A DNA stretch of 46,374 nucleotides. It comes from a virus. The first letter of the stretch is position 1; each line of letters opens with the position of its first letter. Positions 3,751 to 42,406 of the stretch are shown here, piece after piece. The position numbers were made by a program, and so were the translations under genes. The notes beneath the pieces were generated by a model. That model had not been told where the DNA came from and made no database searches. It saw nothing but the letters and a program-made list of their open reading frames with translations. The stretch is from positions 1 to 46,374 of IMG/VR virus record IMGVR_UViG_3300047300_000601; one strand, 5' to 3'.

Positions 3751-6666
3751 TTAGCCACCGATCTCGCTGAACGCAATAGAAGAACGAGCAGCCACGAAGT
3801 TAAGAGTAATGAAGTTGATAGAACGAGTTGGCTTAACGAAGATATCAGCAACGAATTCGTTACGGTCGATAACCTCACCACTGTTGTTAGACTCATCACA
3901 CTTAACTAGGAAGTCAGTAATACCACGACGACCCTGAACGTCACGTAGGAACGGCTCAATCAAGTTCTTGAATTGACCGCGAGTGAACGCATCGTTGAAC
4001 TCAAATAGTTGATACTTAGCAGCTGTCGCAATAGATTTCTCTAGAACGATAAACAAGCGACGAACGTTAATACGGTCGAAAGCACTTGGTTTAGCCAACA
4101 ATGTCTTATCACCGAACAATACAGTACCTTGACCTGGGAAAGTAACAACTGGGTTAATAGAGTTACGATACAAGTTGTCACGGTTAGTTTGGTTAGGGTT
4201 GCAAGACAAGCGAACAACGTTCTTGATTTGACCACGGTTTAGACCACCTGGAGACCACCATGGATCGTTAGTGTAATCAGTACGGGCACATAGACCAGCG
4301 ATATCACCGTTTAGTGGAACCCAACGATACACGTCGTTATAACGGTCATATTGGTACTTGAAGCCAGAATCTAGAACAGAATAAGAGTTGCTAGAAAGAG
4401 CATTACGGTAATCAATAATCTTGTTAACGTGAGAAGAAGTATCACCAATGATAACTTCACCAGTATCGTTATCTTCTGGAGAAATAAACACAACGGCATC
4501 TAGACGAGTTAGAGCAACATTGTCGATTACATAGTTAGTAACAACAGAAGAAGCCTTACCCATCATGATCAAGTTGATGTCATATAGAGTTGCGTTAGAG
4601 AACAACTCGAATGCATCCATCTTTTGACCATCAGTAGAACCTGCGTCATCAATACCACCAGATAGAGATTGTGTTACAGGAGCAGTCATAGACTTGAACG
4701 CTGTACCAGCCATTACGCTACCCCAGTTAGTAGACGCATAACCACCAGTAACTTGGTCAGTGTGATCAGTCCACCACAACCATTCAGAACGACCATTGAT
4801 AACGTCTTTGTAGTAGTTGTTTGTACCGTCTGGTTTCTTGTTATCAGAAGCCTTAGAAACGAAAGCATACTTTTCTAGAACAGCATTTTCAACACCAGAG
4901 ATATAACCCTTTTCGTCGATAATGATGATGTGCATTTCGTCGTTAGAACCGCCGATAATTGCAGCACCTTCAGATGTTCCTGGAGAAGCGTCGAACTCGT
5001 CTTTGTAAGCCCAAGTTTGGTAAGTGTCGCGGTCAGCCATAGACACTTTTAGAGAGTTACCTAGTTTTCCTGGGTACTTAGCAGCCCATTCACCAGTAAC
5101 ACCACCACCATTGATGAAGTTTGCAGAATAGAATTGACCGTTTAGAATTGCAACACCTGCAGTTTCAATAACAGCAGTAGCAACAGCAGTAACACCATTC
5201 TCAGATGGGGCATCTTCAATAATGACAGCTGGTGCAGCAGAAAGGCCAGTACCACCAACAGTAATAACAACAGAAGTAACTGAAGAAGAGCCAACTGTTA
5301 CAGAACCTACAGTAGCACCAGAACCACCACCGCCAGTAATAGTTACTGTTGGGAATGCTTTGAAACCAGTACCTCCAGTAGAAATACTGATAGAAGCAAC
5401 AGAGCTAGTGCCAATCGCGGCAGAAGCAGAAGCGCCAGTACCAGTAGAATCTGTAATAAGAATTGTTGGAGTTGAAGTGTATCCAGAACCTGCAGTTGTA
5501 ATACTGATGCTCTTGATAACGTTGTAGTTTACAACAGAGTCAGCTACGCCACCAGAACCACCACCACCAGTAATAGTTACTGTTGGTTCAGAAGTATATC
5601 CAGTACCACCAGAAACGATAGAGATAGAAGTGATGTTATTACCATCAGTAGTTGCAACTGCAGTAGCACCAGAACCACCACCGCCAGTAATAGTTACTGT
5701 TGGAGTTGAAGTGTATCCAGAACCTGCGTTAATCAGAGTAATAGAAGATACTGGTCCAGCTAATACAGCTGCAGCAGAAGCACCAGAACCACCACCACCA
5801 GTAAATGATACTGATGGAGAAGTGTATCCAGAACCGCTAGTAGAAACTGTGATACCAGTAATACCAGATCCAGAAAGAATGGCTGCTGCAGTAGCACCAG
5901 TACCAGTGTCTCCTGGAGCAGGAACAACTGTAACAGTTGGTACGCTAGTGTATCCAGAACCACCAGAAGAAAGGTTAATACCAGTAATAGCGCCACCAGA
6001 AAGAACTGCGCGAGCAGTTGGTTGAATACCACCAGCTTCTTTAACATTCTTTGTAGTAGCAGTAGCAGTAGCACCTGTACCATTACCACCAGTAATTGTA
6101 ATTGATGGGGCAGTGTAACCAGCACCTGGTGCGATGATGTCAATAGACATAATAGCGCCATTTGTAATGTTTGCTTCTAGAACAGCACCAGAACCAGTTG
6201 GATCGCTAACTTCAATAACTGGAGAAGTTTGGTTATTGCTAACATAACCAGTACCACCACTGGTAACAGTAATTTCGCTTAACAACCCTTCAGTTAAAAC
6301 TGCAACTGCTGGAACTGCACCTAGAGAGTCATAACCAGTACCGCCATTTACGATAACCACTTCACTTAGAGCGCCAGTTGGAGTAACAACAGCGTTCTTC
6401 ATGTTAGTAGTTTGCTGGCGAACTAGCAATAGATTGTTAGAATAAGATAGGAAGTTGGCAGCAGTAAAGAAAGATTGGAAGTTGTTGTTGTTTGGAGTAC
6501 CGAAACGACGAACAAGTTCATCTTCTGAAGTAACGGTAATTGGTTCCAAAACAGGACCCCAGTCGAACTGACCTGCGAACGCACCAATGGATGTCGCAAC
6601 GGCTGGAACGATAGAAGTAAAGTCTTTTTCTACGACTGCAACGCCTGGAGATAATTGAAACGGCAT
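3751..6666 (-). CDS. 18: Tail sheath protein, gp18, with a large repeat insertion
   Basis: Gp18 forms the contractile sheath that drives the tube through the host envelope. The 971-aa product is well above T4 gp18 (659). Residues 1-97 hold the sheath N-terminus (LSPGVAVVEKDFTS, GAFAGQFDWGP, VRRFGTPN). Residues about 510-971 hold the conserved body, including VFISPEDN near 725 and the C-terminal FVADIFVKPTRSINFITLNF, which contributes the extended sheath contacts. In between, residues about 100-505 are ten copies of a 38-40 residue unit with the core GGTGYTSxPTVTITGGGG. Without it the protein would be about 570 aa. The insertion follows the N-terminal sheath segment and is probably surface-exposed. 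An AAGGAG ribosome binding sequence precedes the ATG. Confidence 0.96.
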   Translation of the reverse strand: MPFQLSPGVAVVEKDFTSIVPAVATSIGAFAGQFDWGPVLEPITVTSEDELVRRFGTPNNNNFQSFFTAANFLSYSNNLLLVRQQTTNMKNAVVTPTGALSEVVIVNGGTGYDSLGAVPAVAVLTEGLLSEITVTSGGTGYVSNNQTSPVIEVSDPTGSGAVLEANITNGAIMSIDIIAPGAGYTAPSITITGGNGTGATATATTKNVKEAGGIQPTARAVLSGGAITGINLSSGGSGYTSVPTVTVVPAPGDTGTGATAAAILSGSGITGITVSTSGSGYTSPSVSFTGGGGSGASAAAVLAGPVSSITLINAGSGYTSTPTVTITGGGGSGATAVATTDGNNITSISIVSGGTGYTSEPTVTITGGGGSGGVADSVVNYNVIKSISITTAGSGYTSTPTILITDSTGTGASASAAIGTSSVASISISTGGTGFKAFPTVTITGGGGSGATVGSVTVGSSSVTSVVITVGGTGLSAAPAVIIEDAPSENGVTAVATAVIETAGVAILNGQFYSANFINGGGVTGEWAAKYPGKLGNSLKVSMADRDTYQTWAYKDEFDASPGTSEGAAIIGGSNDEMHIIIIDEKGYISGVENAVLEKYAFVSKASDNKKPDGTNNYYKDVINGRSEWLWWTDHTDQVTGGYASTNWGSVMAGTAFKSMTAPVTQSLSGGIDDAGSTDGQKMDAFELFSNATLYDINLIMMGKASSVVTNYVIDNVALTRLDAVVFISPEDNDTGEVIIGDTSSHVNKIIDYRNALSSNSYSVLDSGFKYQYDRYNDVYRWVPLNGDIAGLCARTDYTNDPWWSPGGLNRGQIKNVVRLSCNPNQTNRDNLYRNSINPVVTFPGQGTVLFGDKTLLAKPSAFDRINVRRLFIVLEKSIATAAKYQLFEFNDAFTRGQFKNLIEPFLRDVQGRRGITDFLVKCDESNNSGEVIDRNEFVADIFVKPTRSINFITLNFVAARSSIAFSEIGG
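5151..6369 (-). repeat. Tandem ~40-residue Gly-Tyr repeat array inside gp18
   Basis: Ten units are seen, with G-[TSA]-G-[YFL] landmarks at about residues 108, 137, 181, 235, 277, 315, 353, 392, 431 and 471, so the last six are spaced 38-40 residues apart. Each unit reads as a beta segment, the GxGYTSxPT turn, a second beta segment and a Gly-rich loop (GGGGSGATA). The DNA is also repetitive: 5310-5352 and 5661-5703 are identical over 43 bases. A second exact 30-base pair lies at 5464-5493 and 5698-5727. This indicates recent duplication or recombination among units. Confidence 0.9.
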
Positions 6667-9740: not shown

Positions 9741-10706
9741 TTACCCCAAGAAAAAGTCTAGAGGCGCTGATTTAGTTCTTAGATCGTCTTCTAGTTCTTC
9801 AATCTCTTTAGTTGCTTCAACGTATAGTTTATCACCATCTAAAGTTACGCCACCTGGTAATTGTAGACCAGAGAACTTTTTAATGTTTATAGCCCATTGA
9901 CGTTTAAACAAAGCAGTAACATAATGCTTCAACCATGGTTCATTGAAAGTCTTTGTGAAAGTAGAAGGGTCAATTGCTCTATAACCTTGGATCAAGATAT
10001 AGTCGCCGACGATAACATCAGTCTGCCAATTTACATCAAGGTACAAACGGTTTTGCATACGGTTGAAACGATATAGCGGGTGACCGTTTAATTCTAAGTC
10101 TAGCATTGCTAGGTGAGACATAACTGTCTTATAGTAAACGATAGATGTAGAAGTTAAATCATACAAATCGTTTAGACGTAATTGATATTGCAAGTCAAAG
10201 ATGTTCTTAGAAGAAGACGCTTGACCGATGTTCAAGATTTTAGTTACACCATAAACGTAGTCTGGAGTTGTGATATATTTGTTATCAACTTCACCTAGAA
10301 CCATTGACGCAACTAGACCCAATACTGGACCAGACTGGTTGGCAGTATCCTTGACCTCGCTACCAACAACAGTCCAATCTCCTTGGACGTTTCTAACAGT
10401 CCAAACATTCGTAGTTGATTCTTTATTCCACTGACGGATAACCTCGCATGTACCACCCTGAGTATTGATAAGGTGTGTGCTTTGTGGAGGAATACCTGTT
10501 GAAGATGTAACAGTTAGAAGTGAAGCATTAATCATATGCTTCAGATACATTTGTTCCACGCCTTCATAGTGGTAAAGGTTCCAATATTCCAACGCCTCAT
10601 CCAGACGATCTTCTAACTGGGTATTTTCTACGTTGATCTCTAGTACTGGCGAACCTAAAGCTCGCAGTGCGTATTGTTTTAATTGTTCTCTAGAAGCGAC
10701 AGCCAT
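9741..10706 (-). CDS. 13: Neck protein, gp13
   Basis: Gp13 seals the filled head and forms the neck with gp14. The 321-aa product matches T4 gp13 in length (309). The N-terminal REQLKQYALRALGSPVLEIN and the QLEDRLDEALEYWNLYH stretch are typical of gp13 in marine T4-like phages. The C-terminus carries FKRQWAINIKKFSGLQLPGGV. An AAAGGT ribosome binding sequence precedes the ATG. A perfect TATAAATA box lies 28 bases upstream, inside the end of the halogenase gene, so the neck-terminase genes may be transcribed separately from the enzyme and fibre genes. Confidence 0.95.
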   Translation of the reverse strand: MAVASREQLKQYALRALGSPVLEINVENTQLEDRLDEALEYWNLYHYEGVEQMYLKHMINASLLTVTSSTGIPPQSTHLINTQGGTCEVIRQWNKESTTNVWTVRNVQGDWTVVGSEVKDTANQSGPVLGLVASMVLGEVDNKYITTPDYVYGVTKILNIGQASSSKNIFDLQYQLRLNDLYDLTSTSIVYYKTVMSHLAMLDLELNGHPLYRFNRMQNRLYLDVNWQTDVIVGDYILIQGYRAIDPSTFTKTFNEPWLKHYVTALFKRQWAINIKKFSGLQLPGGVTLDGDKLYVEATKEIEELEDDLRTKSAPLDFFLG

Positions 10707-10726: not shown

Positions 10727-12343
10727 TTATTTACTATTTATATGGATAGTTCTTTCCAAGAATTTGTAATGCGTTTCCAAGGTATCAATGTGGTCTAAAA
10801 CTTCCTTCTTATGCTCTAGCCAAGTGTCATAAACTTCTTTATGAGAATCGTTAGTCTCATTATATTTTAAATTCTGATAATCAATCTTACCACTATCAAC
10901 GGGGTTATATCCCATACCAGCAGCGATGTAAATGATGCCACTCATGCTATAATTATCAAATACTCTTGATCTATGCAGTCTGCTAGCTAAGTCTTGATTT
11001 GAACCTAAAATTACAGATTCAAAATTATTCATAGATTCTGAGTAGTTGATGTTTTCTGTGACGTGCTTCCAATATGGAGTATCATCGCGCATACTTAAAG
11101 CATAGTGTTGAGAAATAAATTCTTTAAACCCTAGGATTTGTTCCAGGAATGCATAATTGAACATATCAATATCAAACTTAGTTACAGTTTGATTTCTCAT
11201 CTTTAATAGGCTAACAACTTTAGTAATACACTCGTGTGTTAACATTAAACCTGTAGATTCTAAAGGTTCGATAAACCCATTAGATAACCCAACACCAATA
11301 ACGTTCTTTTCCCAAGCACGTTTATGAACGCCATGTTTAATTTTAATATGACGAAACTCAGCTTTAGATGCTCGTTCAGCATCTGGGAATAACATTCTAT
11401 TTGAAGCTAAGTGTTTTCTAAATTGTTCTTCAGCTTCTTGCTCATTGGCGAATTTTGAACTATAAACATACCCTGTGCCAATACGATTCCATAATGGAAT
11501 ATTCCACACCCATCCAGCTTCGATAGCTGTACAGCTAGTGTAGTTTTCCATTTCTTTTTCCTTATCAATATAAGGAATTACAGTTGCTATGGCACGATCA
11601 TTTAACAACGTATCGTGAAACGATATAAACTCAACACCCATAGCTTGTTCGAGTAATAGTGATTTAAACCCCGTACAGTCGACGAATAGGTCTGCCTCTA
11701 AATTACCAGAGTTCTCGGTCATAATATGAGTAATATAACCATTTGAATCTTTAGAATAACCAGTAACGTTATCTAGGATGTGTGTCATACCATTTGGAAT
11801 ACATAAATGATCTCTTAAATATACACCAAATAAAGTAGCATCCATGTGGTATGCTGTATCGGTTCTAAAATCAAACCCTCTAATTTTACCATCATTATTT
11901 TTGGTGAGTTTATTCTTATCAGTCATCAAAATTGAATCGTGAAAAAACTCAGCAAAATTTGAGTTATCAATTTCTTTATTATGGACTTTATTTAAAAACC
12001 AATCCATAATAGCGCGAGGTTTATCTGTAAAATCAAATAACCCGAAAGGATAATGGAATTTGTGAGGTTCTTCTTTTGGGTTCTCTCTAAAGTCTATAAA
12101 CTTGATAGAAGTCTTGTATGTTCCGTTACAATGAGGCATCCAGTCTTCGTCTTTTAATCCAAGTAAATTCAGAAATTCGTTGATATGACCGATCGTGGAT
12201 TCACCAACGCCAATGATTGGTATATTTGGAGATTCAATTAAAGTTAACTCAATCTCTGGTAATTGTTTGCAAATTGCGGCTGCGGTCATCCATCCAGACG
12301 AGCCGCCCCCAACAATTACAACCTTCTTAACCTTCATGCTCAT
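10727..12343 (-). CDS. FAD-dependent tryptophan-halogenase family protein
   Basis: Members oxidise chloride, bromide or iodide with reduced FAD and O2 and use the hypohalous acid on an aromatic substrate. All hallmarks are present in 538 aa. The FAD-binding GGGSSGW lies at residues 12-18. GVGEST is at 45-50, and candidate catalytic Lys77 is in GTYK. The halogenase signature WVWNIP is at 278-283. GFIEPLESTG at 356-365 supplies the Glu next to the Lys. The family is known in marine cyanophages, including the characterised VirX1 from phage Syn10, so the native substrate could be broad. No flavin reductase is encoded here, so host FADH2 would be needed. It follows the U32-like gene with no effective gap and has an AAGGG ribosome binding site. 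The DNA looks more AT-rich than the neck and sheath genes. Confidence 0.93.
   Translation of the reverse strand: MSMKVKKVVIVGGGSSGWMTAAAICKQLPEIELTLIESPNIPIIGVGESTIGHINEFLNLLGLKDEDWMPHCNGTYKTSIKFIDFRENPKEEPHKFHYPFGLFDFTDKPRAIMDWFLNKVHNKEIDNSNFAEFFHDSILMTDKNKLTKNNDGKIRGFDFRTDTAYHMDATLFGVYLRDHLCIPNGMTHILDNVTGYSKDSNGYITHIMTENSGNLEADLFVDCTGFKSLLLEQAMGVEFISFHDTLLNDRAIATVIPYIDKEKEMENYTSCTAIEAGWVWNIPLWNRIGTGYVYSSKFANEQEAEEQFRKHLASNRMLFPDAERASKAEFRHIKIKHGVHKRAWEKNVIGVGLSNGFIEPLESTGLMLTHECITKVVSLLKMRNQTVTKFDIDMFNYAFLEQILGFKEFISQHYALSMRDDTPYWKHVTENINYSESMNNFESVILGSNQDLASRLHRSRVFDNYSMSGIIYIAAGMGYNPVDSGKIDYQNLKYNETNDSHKEVYDTWLEHKKEVLDHIDTLETHYKFLERTIHINSK
10735..10742 (-). promoter_or_regulatory. Consensus T4 late promoter box (TATAAATA) before gp13
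   Basis: The minus strand shows the exact T4 late consensus TATAAATA, 28 bases before the gp13 ATG. It lies within the last codons of the halogenase gene, coding part of HINSK. An initiation point about six bases downstream would leave a short leader with the gp13 ribosome binding site. This is the best promoter candidate in the window. Confidence 0.65.
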
Positions 12344-12344
12344 A

Positions 12345-13574
12345 TCAACCCTTTCTTATTTGGAGTGCAGAATCTATATCTCTAACCCCAAATGTTCGTT
12401 CGCACTCATGGCAATCCCAACATTGGTTTCGGCAAGAAGTTAACAGCTTCTCTAACCTTTTACCACCATCAGTAGACCAAATACCATTGTAACCTTTATA
12501 TGTTACTTTGTAATCATCTTTAACATTTCTAGTGTCAATCCATCCAGGAACCCAGTCATGGATCGGCGCTAAGTTATTTTCAACGATTGCCTCAAAATTA
12601 TCAGCATATACTGATTCATGAGCAAACTTAATTGTTTGTTTGAATCGCTCGCCATCTTTATAGAACCAAACAGCTTTCAAATATTTCGTATCTTCAGGTG
12701 ATGTTGCTGGTTTTGATAGACGCCCTGAATATTTAAAAATATCAACCAGATCTAAAAATTTATGAAACGTGACCCCATCGCTTGCAACTAAGTCAATACC
12801 TGCGCGTGGTAGCTTCGCAAACTCTGGTAGACCTCTCCAAGCATTACATGATAGATCCGCTGGTCCTTTGAAATAATCAGTACTAATTATTTCTCCAACA
12901 GAGTCGTGTTCTTTTTTAAACGGGCATCTATAAATGCATGACTCTGCTACCAAAAGCGATGTTAGTAATTTCTTCTTTGGATTTTGGCTGTTAAGATAGT
13001 TTTGCGCTTCTCTGATACGCTTCAACTCTTTGATATTTCTATTTAAACTGCGATCTAAAAGAATAGTGTTGTAACCTAGATACGCATAATCAATTAGTTG
13101 TTGCGCATCGGCTACGATTTGGTTTACTGTTGACTTCCAACGCATGTCAGGGCATCTGGCTTGTAGCTCACCAGTTCTTAAAATATGCTCAGATGACATT
13201 GTACACGATCTCAATCCGCGATCATAATAAGAGCCGATCCACTCTACGAATTGAGCTCTCACATTATGATCAAAAACTACTTCGTGTGGTACTTCTACTG
13301 TATTGAATGTTAAAGATATTTCAATACCAGTTTCTTCTTGTAGTTTAAACAAATAGTCAACTTGGGCATCAGAAGCCTCGACGCCCATTGGATTACCGCA
13401 TCGTTTTTCTTGACCATTATATGTGTAAGAAAAGTATTTGCCGAAATAGATATCGTGAATATTATTCAGATAGCTGGGATCAGCATTTTTCATAATATTG
13501 TAATAAAAATCTTCATGTTCACCATGGAACATATCGAAGTGTGCAATAGAAAAACGTTTTGTGTATTTACTCAT
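12345..13574 (-). CDS. U32-family-like (beta/alpha)-barrel protein with candidate Fe-S cysteines
   Basis: The 409-aa product resembles the U32 'peptidase' superfamily. Known members (UbiU/UbiV, RlhA, TrhP) are not proteases but O2-independent hydroxylation factors with [4Fe-4S] clusters. Barrel-like landmarks appear in order: EISLTFNTVEVP near 85, CTMSSEHILR at 124-133, YNTILLDRSLNRNIKELKRI near 168 and LVAESCIYRCPFKKEHD at 208-224. KYSGRL follows at 281-286, like the KIxGR motif of the family. Candidate cluster ligands are C213, C217 and C243, plus a C-terminal CRNQCWDCHEC (C381, C385, C388, C391). I see no radical-SAM CxxxCxxC near the N-terminus. It is directly upstream of the halogenase and almost certainly cotranscribed. 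Substrate is unknown, and the family call rests on motif order only. Confidence 0.7.
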   Translation of the reverse strand: MSKYTKRFSIAHFDMFHGEHEDFYYNIMKNADPSYLNNIHDIYFGKYFSYTYNGQEKRCGNPMGVEASDAQVDYLFKLQEETGIEISLTFNTVEVPHEVVFDHNVRAQFVEWIGSYYDRGLRSCTMSSEHILRTGELQARCPDMRWKSTVNQIVADAQQLIDYAYLGYNTILLDRSLNRNIKELKRIREAQNYLNSQNPKKKLLTSLLVAESCIYRCPFKKEHDSVGEIISTDYFKGPADLSCNAWRGLPEFAKLPRAGIDLVASDGVTFHKFLDLVDIFKYSGRLSKPATSPEDTKYLKAVWFYKDGERFKQTIKFAHESVYADNFEAIVENNLAPIHDWVPGWIDTRNVKDDYKVTYKGYNGIWSTDGGKRLEKLLTSCRNQCWDCHECERTFGVRDIDSALQIRKG

Positions 13575-13606: not shown

Positions 13607-14071
13607 TTAGACTGGAGGTAACTTGATTTCGTTATTTAAATTTAATGATTGTAGTGGATTAGCCATGGAGGAAGCCATCTGTTCTGCGTGTTTTTTATTC
13701 CATTCCATAACAGCTTCTGGGTTATCTTTAGGGATTGCATCTTTCACGCTTGCAATATGCGTTGCCCATGGTCCATCTGCTGAAATCGTTCCAGTTTGGG
13801 CTAACTCTTTAAACATCATATCCATTTGTTCACCAACAGACTTATATGCAATCTGTCTGGCTACTCTATAACCTTCTTCAGCAAAACCTGGAATCAGGAG
13901 TGGATTATGTGGAATAAATGTATTTGTAACTTCATCATATGTATGTGATGAAGTTGTATCTTCTGGACAAGGAATCCACTTAAAATCTGAAGTCGTTTCA
14001 AACTCGTTACCTTGTTCAACAACATCACATACTCTACCAATTTCAATTAAACTGATTAATGCGCTTTTCAT
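13607..14071 (-). CDS. Small fibre-associated hypothetical protein
   Basis: The product is 154 aa. The N-terminal half (KSALISLIEIGRVCDVVEQG, then TSDFKWIPCPED) resembles the short beta proteins that accompany fibre genes in marine myophages. A similar layout occurs in the protein at 17992-18363 (both describe a value, then a Pro-rich 'FIPH/FIPP' segment). The C-terminal half is helical (EVMEWNKKHAEQMASSMANP). A GGGAG ribosome binding site precedes the ATG, which overlaps the stop of the upstream fibre gene (ATGA). It may be a fibre-assembly factor or virion component. That is inference from context. Confidence 0.7.
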   Translation of the reverse strand: MKSALISLIEIGRVCDVVEQGNEFETTSDFKWIPCPEDTTSSHTYDEVTNTFIPHNPLLIPGFAEEGYRVARQIAYKSVGEQMDMMFKELAQTGTISADGPWATHIASVKDAIPKDNPEAVMEWNKKHAEQMASSMANPLQSLNLNNEIKLPPV

Positions 14072-15429
14072 CTATACTCCCAAATTATTACTGCACCTTG
14101 TTGGCCGACTGATCCAGCCCAGTTATCGTTAGTTCTTCCACCGCAGCCACCGTTTCCTGGTGCTCCAACGCCAACTCTAGACCCGCTGCTGTTTCTATTA
14201 AAACCAGAAGCCCCGCCAAAATAACCATCACCGCCTCTAGCAGTTGCAGCGTGTCCGTGGCTATTTGAGTGACCTGTGCCAGTGCCGCCAGATAAGTTGA
14301 CATCACCGCTTGAACCAGCTCCGCCATAACCTCCTGTGTGCCCAATATTTCTATTAGCCCCATAACCACCAGAAGCTGAAACATATGATCCGAATGACGA
14401 TGTTCCGCCATCTCCAGCTGCTGCATAATAACCCGTGTTGCTTCCACCGCCACCTACTGTGACTGTAACACTATTTATACCTTCGACACAAATCAATTTT
14501 TCCGCATAACCACCAGCACCACCAGATTCACAATATCCAGCGGCTCCACCGCCACCACCAACAACCTTAACTAAAATTGTTGTACAGTTAGTTGGTCTGT
14601 TCCAAGTAAATGTGCCAGAAGATGTGTAAGATGACATTGAGATTAACTCTCCATTATCTCTGTTTGATGTGTCGCCAGTACTAGCTTGTACTGTGCCATC
14701 ACCATACACAATTGCTTCTACCACAGAAGATGGGTTAATTAAATCTTGGTTCAACAAGTGTTGAACGGATGGTTCATTACCATCAACTAGCTCGATACGT
14801 GGGGCATAAAACTGTAATCTTGTGGTTGTATCTGTGCAGTAATAGTGATATGTTCTGTTCATACCAGTCGTAGCATTGCCACCCCATTTACAACCATTAG
14901 GGATATTACCTTGCAAATACATCACCTTCCCACCGTTTCTAGTCCAGATACCGTTGTCTTGGTGACCATTATTTGGCGTTGCTGTTGCTTCTGGTAAAAC
15001 GTGAGCAACTACCAAATACCACTGATTTATTGCAAAATACGCAGGGCTTCTATAATCAAAATATGGATTAGTATTAGAAGCACCATCATGTAAACCGTAA
15101 ACGTCGCCTGTACCGTTAGAATGCAAACCAAAATAGAAAGTGCCGCTAGAAGTGGATGATGTTCTTCTAACCCATACTGAATATCTATATGTTTTAGTTC
15201 TATCAATTGAAACGTTTGTACCTTCCCAACCACCATCTCCGCTACTGTCCCCAGATGGATAAGTACCCCAAACTAATACTGATTGACCATATGGTCCAGT
15301 ATCATAGACGCGTTGACTCTCGGTTACGAGTCCGTTTTGAGGGAATCCTGGGACTCCTCCATTTCCACTAATCCAAGTAGAAACATCCAACAAGTTTAGG
15401 TTATTAAGTCTTTTAATTTGTACTGTCAT
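14068..15429 (-). CDS. Tail fibre / adhesin with jelly-roll-like body and Gly-rich tip
   Basis: The 453-aa product has a beta-rich N-terminal half with KTYRYSVWVRRTSSTSSGTFYFGL near residues 85-105, reminiscent of carbohydrate-binding jelly rolls in adhesins. From about residue 275 it turns into a module that opens FTWNRPTNCTTILVKVVGGGGG. It continues with GYCESGGAGGYAEK, then long Gly-rich loops and a final VIIWEYR strand. This Gly-rich tip is shared with the next two upstream genes, so the three form a paralogous set. It is probably a receptor-binding or virion-surface protein. An exact TATAAATA lies inside the gene at 14472-14479, which I do not treat as a promoter. Confidence 0.8.
   Translation of the reverse strand: MTVQIKRLNNLNLLDVSTWISGNGGVPGFPQNGLVTESQRVYDTGPYGQSVLVWGTYPSGDSSGDGGWEGTNVSIDRTKTYRYSVWVRRTSSTSSGTFYFGLHSNGTGDVYGLHDGASNTNPYFDYRSPAYFAINQWYLVVAHVLPEATATPNNGHQDNGIWTRNGGKVMYLQGNIPNGCKWGGNATTGMNRTYHYYCTDTTTRLQFYAPRIELVDGNEPSVQHLLNQDLINPSSVVEAIVYGDGTVQASTGDTSNRDNGELISMSSYTSSGTFTWNRPTNCTTILVKVVGGGGGAAGYCESGGAGGYAEKLICVEGINSVTVTVGGGGSNTGYYAAAGDGGTSSFGSYVSASGGYGANRNIGHTGGYGGAGSSGDVNLSGGTGTGHSNSHGHAATARGGDGYFGGASGFNRNSSGSRVGVGAPGNGGCGGRTNDNWAGSVGQQGAVIIWEYR
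14497..14560 (-). repeat. Gly-rich tip repeat, copy 1 (pairs with 15876-15939)
   Basis: The 64 bases encoding the GGGGGAAGYCESGGAGGYAEK segment match 15876-15939 with only two differences. The flanking coding DNA has diverged much more. A third, more distant copy is at about 17278-17342. Confidence 0.85.
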
Positions 15430-15434
15430 AATAC

Positions 15435-16841
15435 TTACTTATAAGAATAAACAATAACAATTCCACTCTCACCATTAGAAGTGCCAGAACCACCGCCACC
15501 GCCATCATCGGTACGACCACCTGGTCCACCAGAACCTGGAGCGCCAGTATATAGTTTAGTAGAAGCGGTATCGCGTCTAACTGTTGAAGAACCGCCCCAG
15601 AATGAACCACCACCAGTACCTCCTGGATAATGTCCGTGGCTATTCGCATGTCCAGTTCCATCACCACCATATAGGTTAATTTGCCCACCAGAACCGACGC
15701 CACCTATGCCACCAGAATGACTGTAGTTTTGATTAGCTCCATATCCACCAGAAGCAGAAACGTAAGATCCAAATGATGAAGTTCCGCCATTTCCTGCTCC
15801 AGCATAATAGCCTGTGCTGGCGCCACCAGCACCAATAGTTACTGAAACCTGATATATTCCTGATACGTCTATTTCTTTTTCCGCATAACCACCAGCGCCA
15901 CCAGATTCACAATATCCAGCGGCTCCGCCGCCACCACCAGTTACTTTTACAACAACCTTTGTACAATCGGTTGGTCTGTTCCATACTCCAGATGACGTGT
16001 ATGTATTGATCTGTAATAATTCACCTTTTGTAGAAACTGCAGCTGTTGATTGTGAAGTTAAATCTTGATATGTAATCTTAGTATCAAAAGTTTGTGTTGC
16101 GCCGAAGAACCTTGGTGCAGTCGTATTATATACAGTCAAACATTCTGCATCTGTTAATTGTCTATTCCATGCACCAAACCACGCAATATCACCCCAAAAT
16201 TGGTTAGCGTTATTTACATCCGTACCAGTATCGTTACCATATGCACCAAGAGAGTTAAATCCACCCTTAAACGCTGAGTTTGAAGAAGCATTGGAACCAC
16301 GAGTTGTTCCTGGTGTATCATTATAACTTAGTCTTAGATATGGGGAAACTGAACTAAATCTGAAGATTAACATGTTCCAACCATTACTACCATAATTTGG
16401 TAAACTTTGTTGACTAAAGCCAGTATCGTTAAAACCACTACCGTTTTGATTATCATACATACCAATATTCCAACCACCGTTTTGAATAATGATATTATGA
16501 TCTGGACACCCATAACTAGAAATTCCTCTAGTTAATGTTCTCCATTCTGATGTTGAGTTTCTAACTCTAGTCCATACAATATATGTTGCGTTACCCTGTT
16601 CTTTACCAACCATACCAAGGATGCCTCCGGATGCTAATTTCGCGCATCCATATGAACCATTGAAATCCATATATTTTGGAGAAGTGGCATTATATGCTTT
16701 AGGGTTTACATAGAAATGATTATCCAGACCGCTTAAATCTGGCCATGTATCGGAACCAGTTGTATATGATGATGCGTCCAAAAGAAGGCATAGTGACTTT
16801 TTAGGGATTTGAGTATATTGTTGTCCAATAACAATTGCCAT
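15435..16841 (-). CDS. Tail fibre / adhesin with LamG-like domain and Gly-rich tip
   Basis: I take the start at 16841 (MAIVIGQQYTQIP), not the longer frame to 16904. An AAGG ribosome binding site lies six bases ahead, and the longer version would overlap the upstream gene by 55 bases with an implausible N-terminus. The product is 468 aa. Residues about 15-240 look like a LamG/concanavalin-type sandwich: it opens LCLLLDASSY, then DLSGLDNHFY, and closes with GDIAWFGAWNRQLTDAECLTVYN. The rest is the CESGG Gly-rich tip shared with its neighbours, ending IVIVYSYK. LamG-like domains commonly bind surface glycans, so a receptor-binding role is likely. The ligand cannot be read from the sequence. Confidence 0.82.
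   Translation of the reverse strand: MAIVIGQQYTQIPKKSLCLLLDASSYTTGSDTWPDLSGLDNHFYVNPKAYNATSPKYMDFNGSYGCAKLASGGILGMVGKEQGNATYIVWTRVRNSTSEWRTLTRGISSYGCPDHNIIIQNGGWNIGMYDNQNGSGFNDTGFSQQSLPNYGSNGWNMLIFRFSSVSPYLRLSYNDTPGTTRGSNASSNSAFKGGFNSLGAYGNDTGTDVNNANQFWGDIAWFGAWNRQLTDAECLTVYNTTAPRFFGATQTFDTKITYQDLTSQSTAAVSTKGELLQINTYTSSGVWNRPTDCTKVVVKVTGGGGGAAGYCESGGAGGYAEKEIDVSGIYQVSVTIGAGGASTGYYAGAGNGGTSSFGSYVSASGGYGANQNYSHSGGIGGVGSGGQINLYGGDGTGHANSHGHYPGGTGGGSFWGGSSTVRRDTASTKLYTGAPGSGGPGGRTDDGGGGGSGTSNGESGIVIVYSYK
15876..15939 (-). repeat. Gly-rich tip repeat, copy 2 (pairs with 14497-14560)
   Basis: This is the second copy of the 64-base segment encoding the CESGGAGGYAEK core, with two A/G differences from copy 1. 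Such high local identity between two adjacent fibre genes suggests recombination or gene conversion at the tip module. Confidence 0.85.
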
Positions 16842-16849
16842 GTTTAACC

Positions 16850-17518
16850 TTAAGAATATGAATACACAACTACGATCCCAGGCATACCTTGAGAACCTGC
16901 CCACCCACCGTTAGATGCTCCACCTGGTCCACCAGAACCTGGAGCGCCAGTACCAACAGCGCCATAGTTGGCATTATGTGAAACACCATATCCGCCACCC
17001 CAATATGTGGCTCCACCACGTCCGATAGCAGAACGGCTACCGCTAGAACCATGACCAGTACCAGTTCCACCTAATAGATTGATGTCACCACCAGAACCGA
17101 CGCCACCGTGGCCACCCGTGTGATTAACGTGTCTGTTAGCACCATAGCCTCCAGAAGCAGACAAGAAACCTCCAAATGAGGAAGTCCCTCCATCAGAACC
17201 AGCTGCATAATAAGCAACAGCACCACCACCACCACCGACAGTTACAGACACGGAGTTAACTGTTGATACATCAATAATTCTCTCAGCATAACCACCACCG
17301 CCACCAGATTCGCAGTGATATGCAGCACCACCTCCACCGCCAGTTACTTTAACTAATACTTTTTTACAGTTGGATGGTCTGTACCAAGTAGATGTACCTG
17401 CTGATGTATATGAGTCAATTCTTATCAGCTTACCAGAATCTGAAGAAATATCTTTCTTCGTAGTTTGTGTTGTGGAATCGTTAAATGCGATTCCAGAAGA
17501 TCCAAGAGTTGTTGGCAT
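16850..17518 (-). CDS. Short tail fibre / adhesin, Gly-rich tip
   Basis: The 222-aa product has a short N-terminal fibre motif (LGSSGIAFNDSTTQT) of the kind repeated in phage tail fibres. It then goes straight into the Gly-rich module with STWYRPSNCKKVLVKVTGGGGG and HCESGGGGGYAERIIDV, ending in IVVVYSYS. It is the minimal version of the tip found in the two downstream genes, lacking any LamG or jelly-roll body. It is two bases from the upstream S74-domain gene. It is likely a virion-surface protein. The function of the tip is unknown. Confidence 0.78.
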   Translation of the reverse strand: MPTTLGSSGIAFNDSTTQTTKKDISSDSGKLIRIDSYTSAGTSTWYRPSNCKKVLVKVTGGGGGAAYHCESGGGGGYAERIIDVSTVNSVSVTVGGGGGAVAYYAAGSDGGTSSFGGFLSASGGYGANRHVNHTGGHGGVGSGGDINLLGGTGTGHGSSGSRSAIGRGGATYWGGGYGVSHNANYGAVGTGAPGSGGPGGASNGGWAGSQGMPGIVVVYSYS

Positions 17519-18373: not shown

Positions 18374-19780
18374 TTATAGGTATACTTTAACTAAAACGAT
18401 ACCTGAACCGCCAGAACCAGAAGCTGCTCCATGCCACGCGATTAAACCTTGGTCTTCAGAAGAACCACCACCGCCACCACCAGTATTTGGTAGACCGTTA
18501 ATTTTATAAATGTTCCACGCAGCACCAGTGGTGTATTCTTTAGCAGAAGTTCCATTTCCTCCACCACCTTGACCGCCAATACCTTGAGCTAATAATGCAG
18601 ATGTTGAATAACTTGCTCCACCTCCCCCACCAGCAAACCAGCCACCTTCACCAAACCAGTTACCGAAAACTGTTGAAAGGTTAATGCCTGCACCGCCGTT
18701 GCCTCCAATAGAGTTGTTTGCATTTGATTGTCCAGTTCCACCAACACCGCCAGCACCACCACCGCCAGCACCGCCAAAGTTACCGTTACCACCAGAACGA
18801 CCGCCAGCATTTCCTAGCGAAGTCCAACCAACATATGTTCCTTGGTTAGATGCCGCGCCGTTGTTGTTCGAGTCAGTTGAATTTCGAGCACCACCGCCAC
18901 CGCCAGAACCACCACTTGTAGGTGCTGCTTGGTTATCTGAACAACCACCACCGCCACCGCCGTTAGCTGTAACACCAAACGCTTGGCTATAATCACCGTT
19001 TGCGCCTGCTCCGCCGTTAGAGTTCCAACCTCTTGGCATACCTGGTCCACCAGCGCCAACAATAACTGTGTATGTGCCAGCAGTAATTGTATACCCTTGA
19101 CGGTAAACTACACCACCAGCACCACCACCACCTTTACCAGTATCTTGGTCGCCATATGATCCACCACCAGCACCACCGCCACCAACTACTAAAACGTCAG
19201 CAGTTACAGATGAATCTGTGTAGAAAGTACCTGAACTCAAGAATGCATGTAGTCTATATGATGGTGTTTCAACAATAACCCCACCTGAAGTATTTACTAG
19301 GCTTTTTACAACTTGCCATCCAGTACCATCATTGAACTCAACACACTTTCTTTCAACATTATGACGGAAATGAGCTAATGGGTTTCCAGATGGTCGTTGT
19401 GCTGTTGTACCAGATGGTAAAGCCATTGAGCCAGTGCCATTGCCTGTCCCTGTGTCATATTTTGACACAGTAACGTTTCCGTCAACTATCTTAGGAGTTG
19501 TGACAGATGAATCTGATGGGACATATGCAATACCTTGCATACCAATAGCAACACATTCAACAACTGAACCTGCAGGGGGAGCTTCAGAGAAAATAATTTG
19601 GTTAGTACCAATAGAATATGTTGTAGTGTGCTGTTTAACACCGTCAATCGTCACAATTAAAGAAGCTGGTGTCACTGGCGTTCTTGAAATAGCGAAAACA
19701 GTTTGAGAACCGTTACCAGCAAATTGATCTGCTGTATATTGGGAAAATTTTGGAGCGTTTTGACCTGTTAGTAGAGCCAT
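18374..19780 (-). CDS. Tail fibre with T7-gp17-like N-terminus and long Gly-rich tip
   Basis: The 468-aa product has the fibre-type N-terminal domain seen in many podo- and myophages (ADQFAGNGSQTVFAISR, followed by VTIDGVKQHTTTYSIGTNQIIFSEAP, residues about 18-75). A short linker with FRHNVERKCVEFNDGTGWQ follows. From about residue 195 it has a very Gly-rich tip that opens with VTADVLVVGGGGAGGG and ends SGIVLVKVYL. This tip lacks the CESGG motif of the genes at 14068-17518, so it is a related but different variety. It is probably receptor-binding. A GATAAATA box sits 25 bases ahead of the start. Confidence 0.82.
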   Translation of the reverse strand: MALLTGQNAPKFSQYTADQFAGNGSQTVFAISRTPVTPASLIVTIDGVKQHTTTYSIGTNQIIFSEAPPAGSVVECVAIGMQGIAYVPSDSSVTTPKIVDGNVTVSKYDTGTGNGTGSMALPSGTTAQRPSGNPLAHFRHNVERKCVEFNDGTGWQVVKSLVNTSGGVIVETPSYRLHAFLSSGTFYTDSSVTADVLVVGGGGAGGGSYGDQDTGKGGGGAGGVVYRQGYTITAGTYTVIVGAGGPGMPRGWNSNGGAGANGDYSQAFGVTANGGGGGGCSDNQAAPTSGGSGGGGGARNSTDSNNNGAASNQGTYVGWTSLGNAGGRSGGNGNFGGAGGGGAGGVGGTGQSNANNSIGGNGGAGINLSTVFGNWFGEGGWFAGGGGGASYSTSALLAQGIGGQGGGGNGTSAKEYTTGAAWNIYKINGLPNTGGGGGGSSEDQGLIAWHGAASGSGGSGIVLVKVYL

Positions 19781-32493: not shown

Positions 32494-35400
32494 TTAAAAT
32501 TGTACGATTGTTCTTAGCGTAATAGTTTCATCACCAGACGGTGTGAAGCCTTGTTTATTGTCAATGTATAGTAGCTGACCAGAGAATTTATCGAAGTTTG
32601 GCATACCAACTGAGATAGCTGTAAAGTTATCAGAGATGTTAGCAGTTCTAATGAATACATCGTTAGATTCTGGGATATCGCTGTCTAATGACTGTACCAA
32701 AGCGAATACTGAAGACATAGAAACAATACGGTAACGCTTTTTAGATTTAGTTGAACCAACATAGTTCAGCTTGGCAAAACCGTTAGTTTCAGTACCAGTA
32801 GTGGATGTTGGTGCAGAAGAACCAGAAACTCCACCTTCAGCAACAGCATAGATTCTATCGCTTGTCCAGATAAATTCACCAGTGTTTAGAACAAGCGAAG
32901 GTGCCCATTCAATATCTGGGTGAGAAATACGTTCAATATACAAATCTTCATCTTTAGAGAAGCGAAGAATATTGATAGGTGCCTGCACAATAAAGCAAGA
33001 AGAACCTAAAGAACCTTGATAACGCTCAAACCCGTCAAACACGCGAGGGTCTTTCAAGATACCAACTTGGCGATAATCGTTACCAACCACAACACCTTGG
33101 TTCAAATCGTTAGAAATATTTGTATAAAACATCAAGTTAGTTGCATACAATTCTTCAGGGGAACTCTTACCGTGACCGCCAAAAGGTGAAATAATTGCTC
33201 TTAAGTTAGCACCAGAACCGTTACCAATAACCTTAACGTTAGCGTATGTGTATCCTTCGCCACGGTTAGTGATTTGTACTTTAGTAATAGCTTGAGTAAT
33301 TGGATCAATAATTGCTTTCGCAGTAGCTCCAACTCCATCACCCTCAATAAGGATGTTAGCAACACCATATGAATAACCGCCAGATACAATAGCAATAGCA
33401 TCAACTGTGCCAGCTGGAGTTAAAATTTCGTTGTTAGCTTGCTGTGAAGAAATAGCGCCCAATGAAAGGTCAGCTGTTAACATAGCACCTTGACCGTCAC
33501 CTGTTACGTTGATGGTTGCTTTAGTGTAACCAACTCCTGGATCATCAATAACCAAATAGATAATCTGACCATTTTCAGTAATAGCAGAAATCTTAGCTTC
33601 TGACTTGGCAGTAAAGAAGTTGATTTCAGCACCGTGACCATTTTGATCAATGATATTAACTGCAGGAGTTACAGAATAACCAGCACCGTAACGCATAACA
33701 GCGTAACCAGTAGCAACAGAACCATCTCTACGAAGGCTGGCAACTGGTCCAATATGACGTAAACCAACGCCATAAGTAGCAGCAGAACCATCGCCACTCA
33801 AAAACTCTGGAGGAGTAGTGCTAGTGTATCCGCTTTCAAGAACCAAATATAGGTGCTTAACCCCACTGACTTCTCTGTAAACAGTTTCACCAGCAACAAG
33901 TTCTGTTGTAGCAACCCATGGTACTGAAGTGTATTGAGTTCCAGTATTCCAAGACGGAGAAACGTGACCAAAGAATCCACCTTCAACAACAGTGTAAAGG
34001 TTAGAGCCATTTGAGAATTGGTCGTTTGTGTAAACTTCTAATCCTTGTTCCCATGGAGTACCAAAAGTTACAGTCGGAGTTCCAAGGTAATCTTGACCAG
34101 AGTTAATAACTGTTGTTGAAATAACTTTATCAGCATAAAGTTTAGAACGAACAACAGCATAGTTACCTCCACCACCAGAGATAGTTACTGTTGGAGGTGT
34201 ATTATATCCAGAACCAGAAGAAATTAAAACAACTTCACGAACGCTACCGATTAGAGAAACATCATCAATAACACCAGTTTCAACAACCGCTGTGGCAGTT
34301 GCCCCGAAACCAGCATCTCCTGGGGCAGCGTCAATTGTAATTTCAGGGTTAGTGTAACCAGTACCACCGTTGACGATAACAACGTCCAGAATCGGAGAAC
34401 CTGATAGGATTGGTGTCATAACACAACCAGAACCAGAAGGATCTTCAATACGGATAGTTGGGACTTCAGTGTAACCAGAACCAGCTGAGATTACAACAAC
34501 TTCATCAATATCACCGTTAACTAGAACTGGTTGCAGGATAGCACCAGAACCACCACCACCGACAACAGTTAAGATCGGAGAAACGTAATTGTGATTTGAA
34601 TTAGAGTTATTGATACTTATTGAACTGATACCAGAATCACCGATTAGAGCAGTAATCTGAGCGCCTTGACCAGTTGGATCATTCACAGTAATAACTGGAG
34701 GTTGTGTATAAGCTGAACCAGTATTTGTAAGGTTCACCCCAACAATGTTCTTATCATTTCTAAGCGTGATAGTACCTTGCATTGTAGTGCCACGATACTT
34801 CATAGCAGTTGTACCGTTTAGAACAGTACCAAACTTATGGCTAGGTTGAACTGGGCCAAGAGAACCAGGAGTCATAACTTCATAGAAGTCTTCGTACTCG
34901 TTCTTAATAATCTGGCCAAGGTTAACCGCACCATTAGGGATAAATGGCGAGAATGAAGCAAATGGAGGAGCAAATTCAATTGTTGCACCATTTTGATAAC
35001 CAGTACCTTCAGAAACAACAGTTGCTCTAGTAATAAGAATCGGGTCAGACTCTCTGTATCCATCACCAGTTACAGAAACAATCGCGCTAGAATATCCTTG
35101 ACCACGGTTAGTAATATAAACGTTGTCAATTGTACCGTTAGAATAGAAGTGGTTGGTTAAAGCTGAAACCACTGGGATATATTCGTCAGTATAAAACTTG
35201 TTACGAAGGTTAATTGGAATGTTATACATGAACTTCCAAATGTAACCATCAGTAGTTTTGATTGGGTCTAACTGAGTGCCAGTAGGTTTAATCTTAGAAA
35301 GATTACCATTGTTGTTATCCAAGCACTTGTAAACGTTGTATTCGTCAGTAACAACATAGAATGCAGCTTGTTCAATCTTCTGGAAACCTGTTGAAGAGAT

Positions 35401-35931
35401 ACCGATCTTGACGCGAAGGTCAACACCAGTACCAGAAGAAGATACAACGTTAATAGTTGGAACTGAAGTATAACCAGATCCTGGGTTTGTTAATACAATA
35501 CCAGAGATAGAAGAACCTGTAATTTCAGATACGACGGCTGTTGCACCAGTACCACCACCGCCAACAATTTCTAACTGAATGTCTGAAATGTTGATATATC
35601 CAGAGCCACCAGAAATAATATCTACGCCGATAACTTCGTCAGAATAACGGTCATCGTACATATCATAAACTACATCTGATGCCCAATCTCTACGTTTAAT
35701 AACGAATGAGATATCTGATGGTTTGATTTCTTTAATCGTAATAATTTCGTTACGAACCGAGTGTTCGTAAGTTAAACTATCAATCGGCTTTGGTGGGTTG
35801 TTCTCGTCAACCCAGTTAAGGGTTTGCCCAAGAAAATAATAGTATGATGAAGATTTTGTAACAACGTCTCTATACACACCCTCAGCTAAGGATTTATATA
35901 GAATCGATTTTACTAGCTTTGTATCTGCCAT
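32494..35931 (-). CDS. 8: Baseplate wedge protein gp8 with expanded Gly-Tyr repeat region
   Basis: Gp8 is a dimer in each baseplate wedge. The 1145-aa product is over three times T4 gp8 (334). T4-like pieces are visible at both ends and near residue 190: FVIKRRDW at about 76-83 (T4: PRRDW), YNVYKCLD, then TTDGYIWKFMYNIP (T4: DGYVWEYLFEIP), YTDEYIPV, and a C-terminal ETITLRTIVQF (T4 ends EEINILFTF). Between and after these are about fourteen units with cores such as NPGSGYTSVPTI, SAGSGYTEVPTI and NRGEGYTYANVK. They span roughly residues 105-910, interrupted by non-repeat segments. It is a clear gp8 homologue enlarged by repeats. It precedes the giant virion gene by 44 bases. Confidence 0.88.
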   Translation of the reverse strand: MADTKLVKSILYKSLAEGVYRDVVTKSSSYYYFLGQTLNWVDENNPPKPIDSLTYEHSVRNEIITIKEIKPSDISFVIKRRDWASDVVYDMYDDRYSDEVIGVDIISGGSGYINISDIQLEIVGGGGTGATAVVSEITGSSISGIVLTNPGSGYTSVPTINVVSSSGTGVDLRVKIGISSTGFQKIEQAAFYVVTDEYNVYKCLDNNNGNLSKIKPTGTQLDPIKTTDGYIWKFMYNIPINLRNKFYTDEYIPVVSALTNHFYSNGTIDNVYITNRGQGYSSAIVSVTGDGYRESDPILITRATVVSEGTGYQNGATIEFAPPFASFSPFIPNGAVNLGQIIKNEYEDFYEVMTPGSLGPVQPSHKFGTVLNGTTAMKYRGTTMQGTITLRNDKNIVGVNLTNTGSAYTQPPVITVNDPTGQGAQITALIGDSGISSISINNSNSNHNYVSPILTVVGGGGSGAILQPVLVNGDIDEVVVISAGSGYTEVPTIRIEDPSGSGCVMTPILSGSPILDVVIVNGGTGYTNPEITIDAAPGDAGFGATATAVVETGVIDDVSLIGSVREVVLISSGSGYNTPPTVTISGGGGNYAVVRSKLYADKVISTTVINSGQDYLGTPTVTFGTPWEQGLEVYTNDQFSNGSNLYTVVEGGFFGHVSPSWNTGTQYTSVPWVATTELVAGETVYREVSGVKHLYLVLESGYTSTTPPEFLSGDGSAATYGVGLRHIGPVASLRRDGSVATGYAVMRYGAGYSVTPAVNIIDQNGHGAEINFFTAKSEAKISAITENGQIIYLVIDDPGVGYTKATINVTGDGQGAMLTADLSLGAISSQQANNEILTPAGTVDAIAIVSGGYSYGVANILIEGDGVGATAKAIIDPITQAITKVQITNRGEGYTYANVKVIGNGSGANLRAIISPFGGHGKSSPEELYATNLMFYTNISNDLNQGVVVGNDYRQVGILKDPRVFDGFERYQGSLGSSCFIVQAPINILRFSKDEDLYIERISHPDIEWAPSLVLNTGEFIWTSDRIYAVAEGGVSGSSAPTSTTGTETNGFAKLNYVGSTKSKKRYRIVSMSSVFALVQSLDSDIPESNDVFIRTANISDNFTAISVGMPNFDKFSGQLLYIDNKQGFTPSGDETITLRTIVQF
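33200..35631 (-). repeat. Interrupted Gly-Tyr repeat region inside gp8
   Basis: About fourteen units with a [SN]-x-G-[ST]-[GA]-Y-[TSN]-x-P-x-[IV] core lie between the gp8 landmark segments. They often carry a following GGGGSGA or DPSGSG loop. Units are more diverged than in gp18 and are not cleanly tandem. The same family is present in gp7 and the 2452-aa protein. Confidence 0.8.
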
Positions 35932-41857: not shown

Positions 41858-42406
41858 TTATGCCCAGTTAATATCCAAGTTGGTTGTATTTCTCCACTTT
41901 ACAGTGGCTGCGTTAATACTATTTATCCATTGCTTATACATTGATGCGTCTGGAACAGCAGTTGAGTTAATGTATTGAAGCAATAACGTTCTATTTAAAT
42001 CCCAGTTATTATTCACAACCTTTGTGTAAACCTTACTTGTAATTAACGTTGTGTCTAGATACACGTTAGCCGTATAGGTGTAAGGTTTAGATGGAGTCGT
42101 ATCTGGTCGGTATTCGATAACCTGTTCTAGTTTATCTATGTTGATAAGTCTAAAGTTGTTAACCGTTATGAATTCATTCGGTACTGCTTTTGTCTTATAC
42201 TTGACAAACATATCAAACACGTTCGTGTAGTAACCAGTTATGTTGTTTCCGCTGATATAGATTGTTTCTGGGTTTGTCTCATTCGGTGTTACTACAACCT
42301 TGTAAGTATTTGATGGGAAGTCTGAATCAGTATAAGTTAGCGAATGTGAGAACGCTTGGTATTCATCTACATTCGCGAAAGTATCAATGTTCCAAACTCC
42401 AGCCAT
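41858..42406 (-). CDS. Hypothetical baseplate-region protein
   Basis: The 182-aa product begins MAGVWNIDTFANVDEYQAFS and has an N-terminal beta-rich part. A Trp/Asn-rich C-terminus has NNWDLNRTLLLQYINST and ends NTTNLDINWA. In T4 the gene after gp5 is gp53, but I see no gp53 hallmark (for example the RTYYIKGS region), so I do not assign it. The start overlaps the spike gene stop (TAATG) and it lies one base from the collar fibre. Its location favours a baseplate role. Confidence 0.78.
   Translation of the reverse strand: MAGVWNIDTFANVDEYQAFSHSLTYTDSDFPSNTYKVVVTPNETNPETIYISGNNITGYYTNVFDMFVKYKTKAVPNEFITVNNFRLINIDKLEQVIEYRPDTTPSKPYTYTANVYLDTTLITSKVYTKVVNNNWDLNRTLLLQYINSTAVPDASMYKQWINSINAATVKWRNTTNLDINWA

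Follow-up and report, generated by a model that had tools for sequence, protein, structure and literature searches.

Flavin-dependent halogenases have been annotated in phages since the early cyanophage genomes, and one of them, VirX1, is of interest for biocatalysis. Here we describe a relative of VirX1 that is encoded beside a U32-like barrel protein and a row of glycine-rich (Gly-rich) tail fibre genes on the IMG/VR virus fragment IMGVR_UViG_3300047300_000601 (46,374 bases; the whole fragment is referred to below as the window). VirX1 is the halogenase of cyanophage Syn10. It has an unusually open, large and accessible active site that accommodates bulky substrates, and in vitro it halogenates many free aromatic compounds, with a preference for iodide (PMC8407142). 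The literature treats phage halogenases as agents of antibiotic protection or metabolite modification (PMC2984593, PMC9964418, PMC10452541), and places 2-oxoglutarate (2OG) oxygenases among genes for DNA repair, nitrogen or protein modification. In the accessible portions of the literature that we found on phage halogenases and tail fibres, no link between the two is made and no native substrate is given for a phage halogenase.

Two other described systems bear on the locus. The U32 superfamily includes the 4Fe-4S proteins UbiU and UbiV, which take part in hydroxylation steps, as well as RlhA and TrhP, which act on RNA; four-Cys motifs are present in most U32 groups (PMC6747719). In cyanophage Pam3, the Gly-rich domain of the fibre is a set of loops, each with two Gly-rich motifs and a distal apex that has been proposed to bind the receptor, and the chaperone gp25 is required for the fibre to fold (PMC9608196).

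A conserved cassette of fibres and enzymes

The cassette lies on the minus strand, as do all genes given below with their coordinates up to the last of the fibre genes. Its order is Gly-rich fibres, phrog_1787 protein, U32-like protein and halogenase, followed by genes for a gp13-like neck protein, a gp14-like protein and a gp15-like sheath stabiliser, then terminase, sheath and portal (the last three labels being judged from sequence and relatives). The U32-like gene (12345-13574, 409 amino acids) and the halogenase gene (10727-12343, 538 amino acids) are both complete and are separated by 1 base: the U32-like TGA stop is followed by a T and then by the halogenase ATG. The preliminary description of the window, which had the two open reading frames abutting on the same strand, was correct on this point. 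It also placed the pair between fibre genes and the neck gene gp13, which holds for the window with two amendments. A phrog_1787 gene (13607-14071, 154 amino acids), the constant neighbour after the Gly-rich fibres, intervenes on the fibre side, and the gp13-like gene (phrog_211; 9741-10706), which is next downstream, is a boundary rather than a constant part of the cassette, since the gp13 neighbourhood is found in some lineages only.

The anatomy and the conservation of the cassette are near certain. We clustered U32-like proteins at 85% identity, requiring flanking DNA (35 clusters), and scored halogenases within 3 kb. A halogenase was found in 25 clusters, Gly-rich fibres and a phrog_1787 gene in 28 each, and a 2OG oxygenase in 16. 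The two enzyme genes are thus neighbours in related phages, without which the cassette idea would have fallen, and these include distant relatives (37-38% identity) and rearranged loci. For example, one locus at 38% identity (L112) has the order of the window, phrog_1787, U32-like, halogenase and neck genes, and three others (L110, L111 and L114) have fibres, halogenase, phrog_1787 and U32-like, so that the order is changed and the linkage kept. On the opposite strand, these three also have eight small genes, of which several are 2OG-oxygenase-like; in two of the loci (L110:11277-16060, L111:11274-16071) a tandem row of about eight divergent 2OG-oxygenase-like genes runs convergent to the fibre, halogenase and U32-like unit.

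The gap between the U32-like and halogenase genes in the IMG/VR relatives is either -4 to +2 bases or about 560-600 bases. The longer gap is occupied by a 2OG-Fe(II) oxygenase-like gene, which is found in about half of the close relatives, is absent from the window and does not figure in the preliminary description. Pfam matches of these oxygenases are weak and below the curated cut-off; their HxD..H..R residues are intact in 26 of 26 distinct intervening genes.

The same unit was reached from an independent direction. In a profile-guided scan that took the fibre domain, rather than the enzymes, as the query against IMG/VR, 80 loci were fetched, and most of these contain one to three fibres, phrog_1787, one to three halogenases and 2OG oxygenases, with a U32-like gene in between in some. 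(No match to this domain came from a tblastn search of the phage collection, the low-complexity filter being the probable cause.) The cassette also moves as a unit, since one relative (L036) is more like the window in its cassette (72% identity for the U32-like protein and 63% for the halogenase) than in its backbone (about 41% for the terminase).

One virus contig without Gly-rich fibres has a different arrangement. By eye, halogenase, methyltransferase-like, U32-like and carbamoyltransferase-like genes stand in a row (L107:7804-13890), and this row may be a biosynthetic cluster.

The halogenase

The gene at 10727-12343 is a complete gene for a flavin-dependent halogenase of the VirX1/PrnA type, and halogenating activity is predicted from its sequence. 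PF04820 covers the whole protein (E 1e-108; 364.5 bits against a cut-off of 21), PHROG 2928 is matched with E 2.5e-154, and the best PDB sequence is VirX1 (6qgm; E 5.5e-149), aligned over residues 3 to 534. The GxGxxG motif that binds flavin adenine dinucleotide (FAD), the WxWxIP motif and the catalytic Lys and Glu are all present. Lys77, WVWNIP at 278-283 and PLEST at 360-364, which includes Glu362, lie exactly where they had first been described, and K77, W278 and E362 are invariant across 136 distinct phage halogenases. The nearest relatives in isolated phages are 37-48% identical across most of the protein, and those of S-CREM1, syn9, S-WAM1, P-TIM40 and S-SZBM1 also reside in a unit of fibre, phrog_1787 and halogenase.

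The U32-like barrel protein

Searches of Pfam, NCBIfam and PDB sequences with the 12345-13574 protein gave no match; at the cut-off of Pfam U32 (PF01136) it is assigned 0 families, and none of 25 relatives matches U32 either. The assignment comes from structure and profile comparison. AlphaFold2, given 25 sequences, predicts a barrel of alternating strands and helices (predicted local distance difference test (pLDDT) 84.8; predicted template modelling (TM) score 0.86). The best PDB fold match of this model is the U32 protein 5D88 (Mk0906; E 6.9e-8, TM 0.68 by target length), which is about 1000-fold better than the next, IMP dehydrogenase (E 6.5e-5). Two bacterial proteins (L121 and L122) exceed the PF01136 cut-off and match the U32-like phage proteins by profile (hhalign, 95.9%), and they share with them the CX3C..H motif and the C-terminal CX3-4CX2CX2C. 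When classical U32 proteins encoded in those genomes were compared by profile, the match was weak (5.6%) and not significant; the link was made by way of the divergent U32 subgroup to which L121 and L122 belong. A U32-like fold is therefore likely, as the preliminary description had supposed; structure prediction gave a barrel closest to U32 with conserved Cys sites, rather than a non-barrel fold.

Seven Cys residues are invariant in the 25-sequence alignment. C213, C217 and C243 form one group, and C381-X3-C385-X2-C388-X2-C391 forms the C-terminal CxxxCxxCxxC, both as originally described; the two motifs are retained in 61 of 62 distinct relatives. From this pattern, two putative Fe-S sites are possible.

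Relatives of the gene occur in other settings as well. Cyanophage relatives have an extra C-terminal part (L003:5818-7536, L004:5887-7608, L005:5755-7512), and in P-SSM4 and Syn19 a gene annotated as denV follows. Two proteobacterial metagenome-assembled genomes contain chromosomal relatives with 50-51% identity (L104:7983-9239, L105:7989-9239). One of these adjoins a pyruvate:ferredoxin oxidoreductase-like gene, and no obvious halogenase was seen near either; they are a possible cellular source of the U32-like gene.

The Gly-rich fibres and their Tyr and His residues

Three Gly-rich tail fibre genes lie upstream of phrog_1787. Fibre 1 (14068-15429) has a PF21722 match above the cut-off, belongs to phrog_863 and contains the loop motif of halogenase-linked fibres. 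Fibre 2 (15435-16904), whose true start may be inside the open reading frame, has the same C-terminal domain and motif. Fibre 3 (16850-17518, 222 amino acids) was modelled with pLDDT 89.9, and its predicted fold best matches the Pam3 fibre (E 3.4e-9, 27% identity), followed by the tail tip of mycobacteriophage Bxb1. As modelled, this domain resembles the host-recognising domain of the Pam3 fibre gp24. By analogy with the Pam3 loops, we infer that His68, Tyr103, Asn128/His133 and His156 of fibre 3 lie at loop apices between Gly-rich motifs, and the codons of these residues define a candidate modification region (17051-17317). The phrog_1787 protein has no solved relative by sequence and no sequence match to Pam3 gp25; its position and the comparison with gp25 suggest that it may be a fibre-assembly chaperone. 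A further Gly-rich fibre is encoded at 18374-19780.

Residues at the putative loop apices are associated with the halogenase. At 75% identity, the fibre domain is represented by 89 halogenase-linked sequences and by 10 that have room for a halogenase and lack one. Tyr (column 92), His (141) and His (174) occur together in 85 of the 89, and none of the three occurs in any of the 10. The Fisher p value of this association (6e-11) does not count as evidence in our argument, since the tree shows a single origin.

Other features of the window

A DNA-level search with 25 kb against phage records matched only the portal gene of vibriophages, so that no close isolate is known. Three structural proteins (3751-6666, sheath-like; 32494-35931; 36456-38591) contain repeated units of the type 'GGTGYTSxPTVTITGGGGSGA', which in the sheath-like protein make up a long insertion. 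The gene at 42406-45462 appears by eye to be baseplate-hub-like, with lysozyme/chitinase-like and C-terminal peptidase-like parts.

Discussion

We propose that the locus is a fibre-linked tailoring cassette, whose enzymes modify the fibre tips and thereby change how the receptor-binding tip adheres or how stable it is; in our estimation the evidence leaves this reading evenly poised. Its wider form, that phages halogenate and hydroxylate the tips of the tail fibres they make by means of a dedicated cassette of halogenase, Fe-S U32-like protein and 2OG oxygenase, and that this is the native function of cyanophage halogenases, we put forward more tentatively. The substrate would be newly made fibre during assembly, perhaps while it is held by the phrog_1787 chaperone. 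Drawing on reduced FAD (FADH2), O2 and halide from the host, the halogenase would add Br, I or Cl electrophilically to the side chains of Tyr or His in the distal loops. Nearby residues would be oxidised or hydroxylated by the U32-like protein, and by the 2OG oxygenase where there is one. The large accessible active site of VirX1 (PMC8407142) would suit a protein loop as substrate, and halogenated Tyr and His in sponge skeletons (PMC8659048) are a precedent for such a product in a structural material.

Of the preliminary interpretation, the real two-enzyme unit and the preference for a virion-linked target stand, the constant partners being Gly-rich fibre genes and phrog_1787. Its argument from a late operon is weaker than it was made to be: no enrichment of late-promoter-like patterns was seen, and the gp13 neighbourhood is lineage-specific.

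Several points weigh against tailoring of the fibres. The chemistry on the fibre is itself something that we infer. Each of the two enzymes occurs without the other, so that the pair is better called modular than obligate: no halogenase accompanies the U32-like gene in clusters such as L060, L063, L064, L108, L109, L113 and L124, the cyanophages P-SSM4, Syn19 and S-RIM2 have a U32-like relative without a halogenase, and other cyanophages have a halogenase without a U32-like gene. The contig L107 has both enzymes without fibres. Pfam does not place the U32-like protein in U32, and in place of the common U32 motif CX6CX15CX3/4C the protein contains CX3C-X25-C and a C-terminal CX3CX2CX2C; UbiU and UbiV deviate from the common Cys pattern too (PMC6747719). 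The 89 halogenase-linked fibre domains form one clade (support 100/99) with one change on the tree, so their Tyr and His residues count as one event and not as independent replication, and the association may stem from the type of host or from the binding of a metal or a receptor. As one event retained across deep divergence, it is consistent with a functional link. Finally, in S-SZBM1 the Gly-rich fibre genes 48 and 49 (L203:6752-8388) adjoin the halogenase (gene 46), and the part of the virion proteome that is accessible lists the neighbours 51 and 53 and does not list fibres 48 and 49 or the halogenase (PMC9146016). The missing fibres decide nothing in that part of the list, since peptides that are rich in Gly or modified readily escape detection.

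A serious though unlikely competitor is that the halogenase serves metabolism or defence as an auxiliary gene, its substrate being a small molecule such as tryptophan, an indole or some other metabolite of the host, and that it came to lie by the fibres as cargo taken up in that region. This agrees with the view in the literature (PMC2984593, PMC9964418, PMC10452541), with the many free aromatics halogenated by VirX1 in vitro (PMC8407142) and with the methyltransferase- and carbamoyltransferase-like neighbours in L107. However, it does not account for the near-total linkage to one fibre-domain clade, which survives rearrangement, and no recurring small-molecule pathway genes were noticed in the cassettes of the window's relatives. 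Slightly less probable, in our view, is that the enzymes have no action on the fibres and hitch-hike with fibres and chaperone, all of them moved together by recombination at a hotspot of fibre exchange. Cargo of no function would be expected to decay or to vary, but here one gene set keeps recurring, and catalytic residues are invariant in the 136 halogenases and the 26 intervening oxygenases; this has to be set against the movement of the cassette among backbones whose terminase and neck genes differ greatly, and against the abundance of 2OG oxygenase and denV-like genes at this position in cyanophage loci.

Two further explanations concern the U32-like protein. That it is a peptidase maturing the collagen-like Gly-rich fibre, with the halogenase acting separately, is suggested by the naming of U32 as a peptidase family and by the closest PDB fold, which is annotated as U32 peptidase Mk0906. 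We consider this improbable, because UbiU and UbiV are 4Fe-4S hydroxylation proteins, four-Cys motifs are present in most U32 groups (PMC6747719), and the seven Cys kept in the phage proteins favour Fe-S chemistry. Hydroxylation of an RNA base, unrelated to fibres, would be in keeping with RlhA and TrhP (PMC6747719) and with the chromosomal relatives in bacterial genomes without fibres, but 28 of the 35 phage clusters adjoin Gly-rich fibre genes and no RNA-modification genes were noticed beside the U32-like genes, which leaves it the least probable of the explanations considered here.

If fibre tailoring is correct, a virion protein would bear halogens placed there by an enzyme, a layer of chemistry beyond the fibre sequence would enter into host recognition, and a U32-like family of no assigned function could be given a part in protein modification. 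Through its conserved link to a single family of receptor-binding fibres, the role of the halogenase becomes testable in isolated cyanophages.

Comparison with known systems

The window halogenase is like VirX1 (PDB 6QGM) and the tryptophan halogenases of the PrnA/RebH type in its full-length alignment, WxWxIP motif, Lys and Glu. Its homologue in syn9 has the same gene order of fibre, phrog_1787 and halogenase, and the two loci differ in the gene before the halogenase, which is U32-like in the window and a second halogenase in syn9.

The U32-like protein shares the barrel fold with the U32 superfamily (UbiU/UbiV, RlhA, TrhP and 5D88) and is connected to it in profile through L121 and L122. Its phage counterpart is PHROG 1458, which has no assigned function (e.g., P-SSM4_035) and which it matches with E 3.7e-24 and with Cys motifs of identical type. 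The cyanophage proteins of this group are likewise encoded close behind fibre-like genes, but they are longer (572-585 amino acids, with a C-terminal extension), are only about 25-31% identical to the window protein and, in P-SSM4, Syn19 and S-RIM2, are encoded without the adjoining halogenase that is found in the window.

For the fibres, the parallel is gp24 and gp25 of Pam3, a fibre and a small partner protein; the predicted fibre domain of the window matches the former, and phrog_1787 may be a counterpart of the latter. The tip of the Pam3 fibre is described as hypervariable (PMC9608196), whereas halogenase-linked fibres keep Tyr and His at their putative loop apices.

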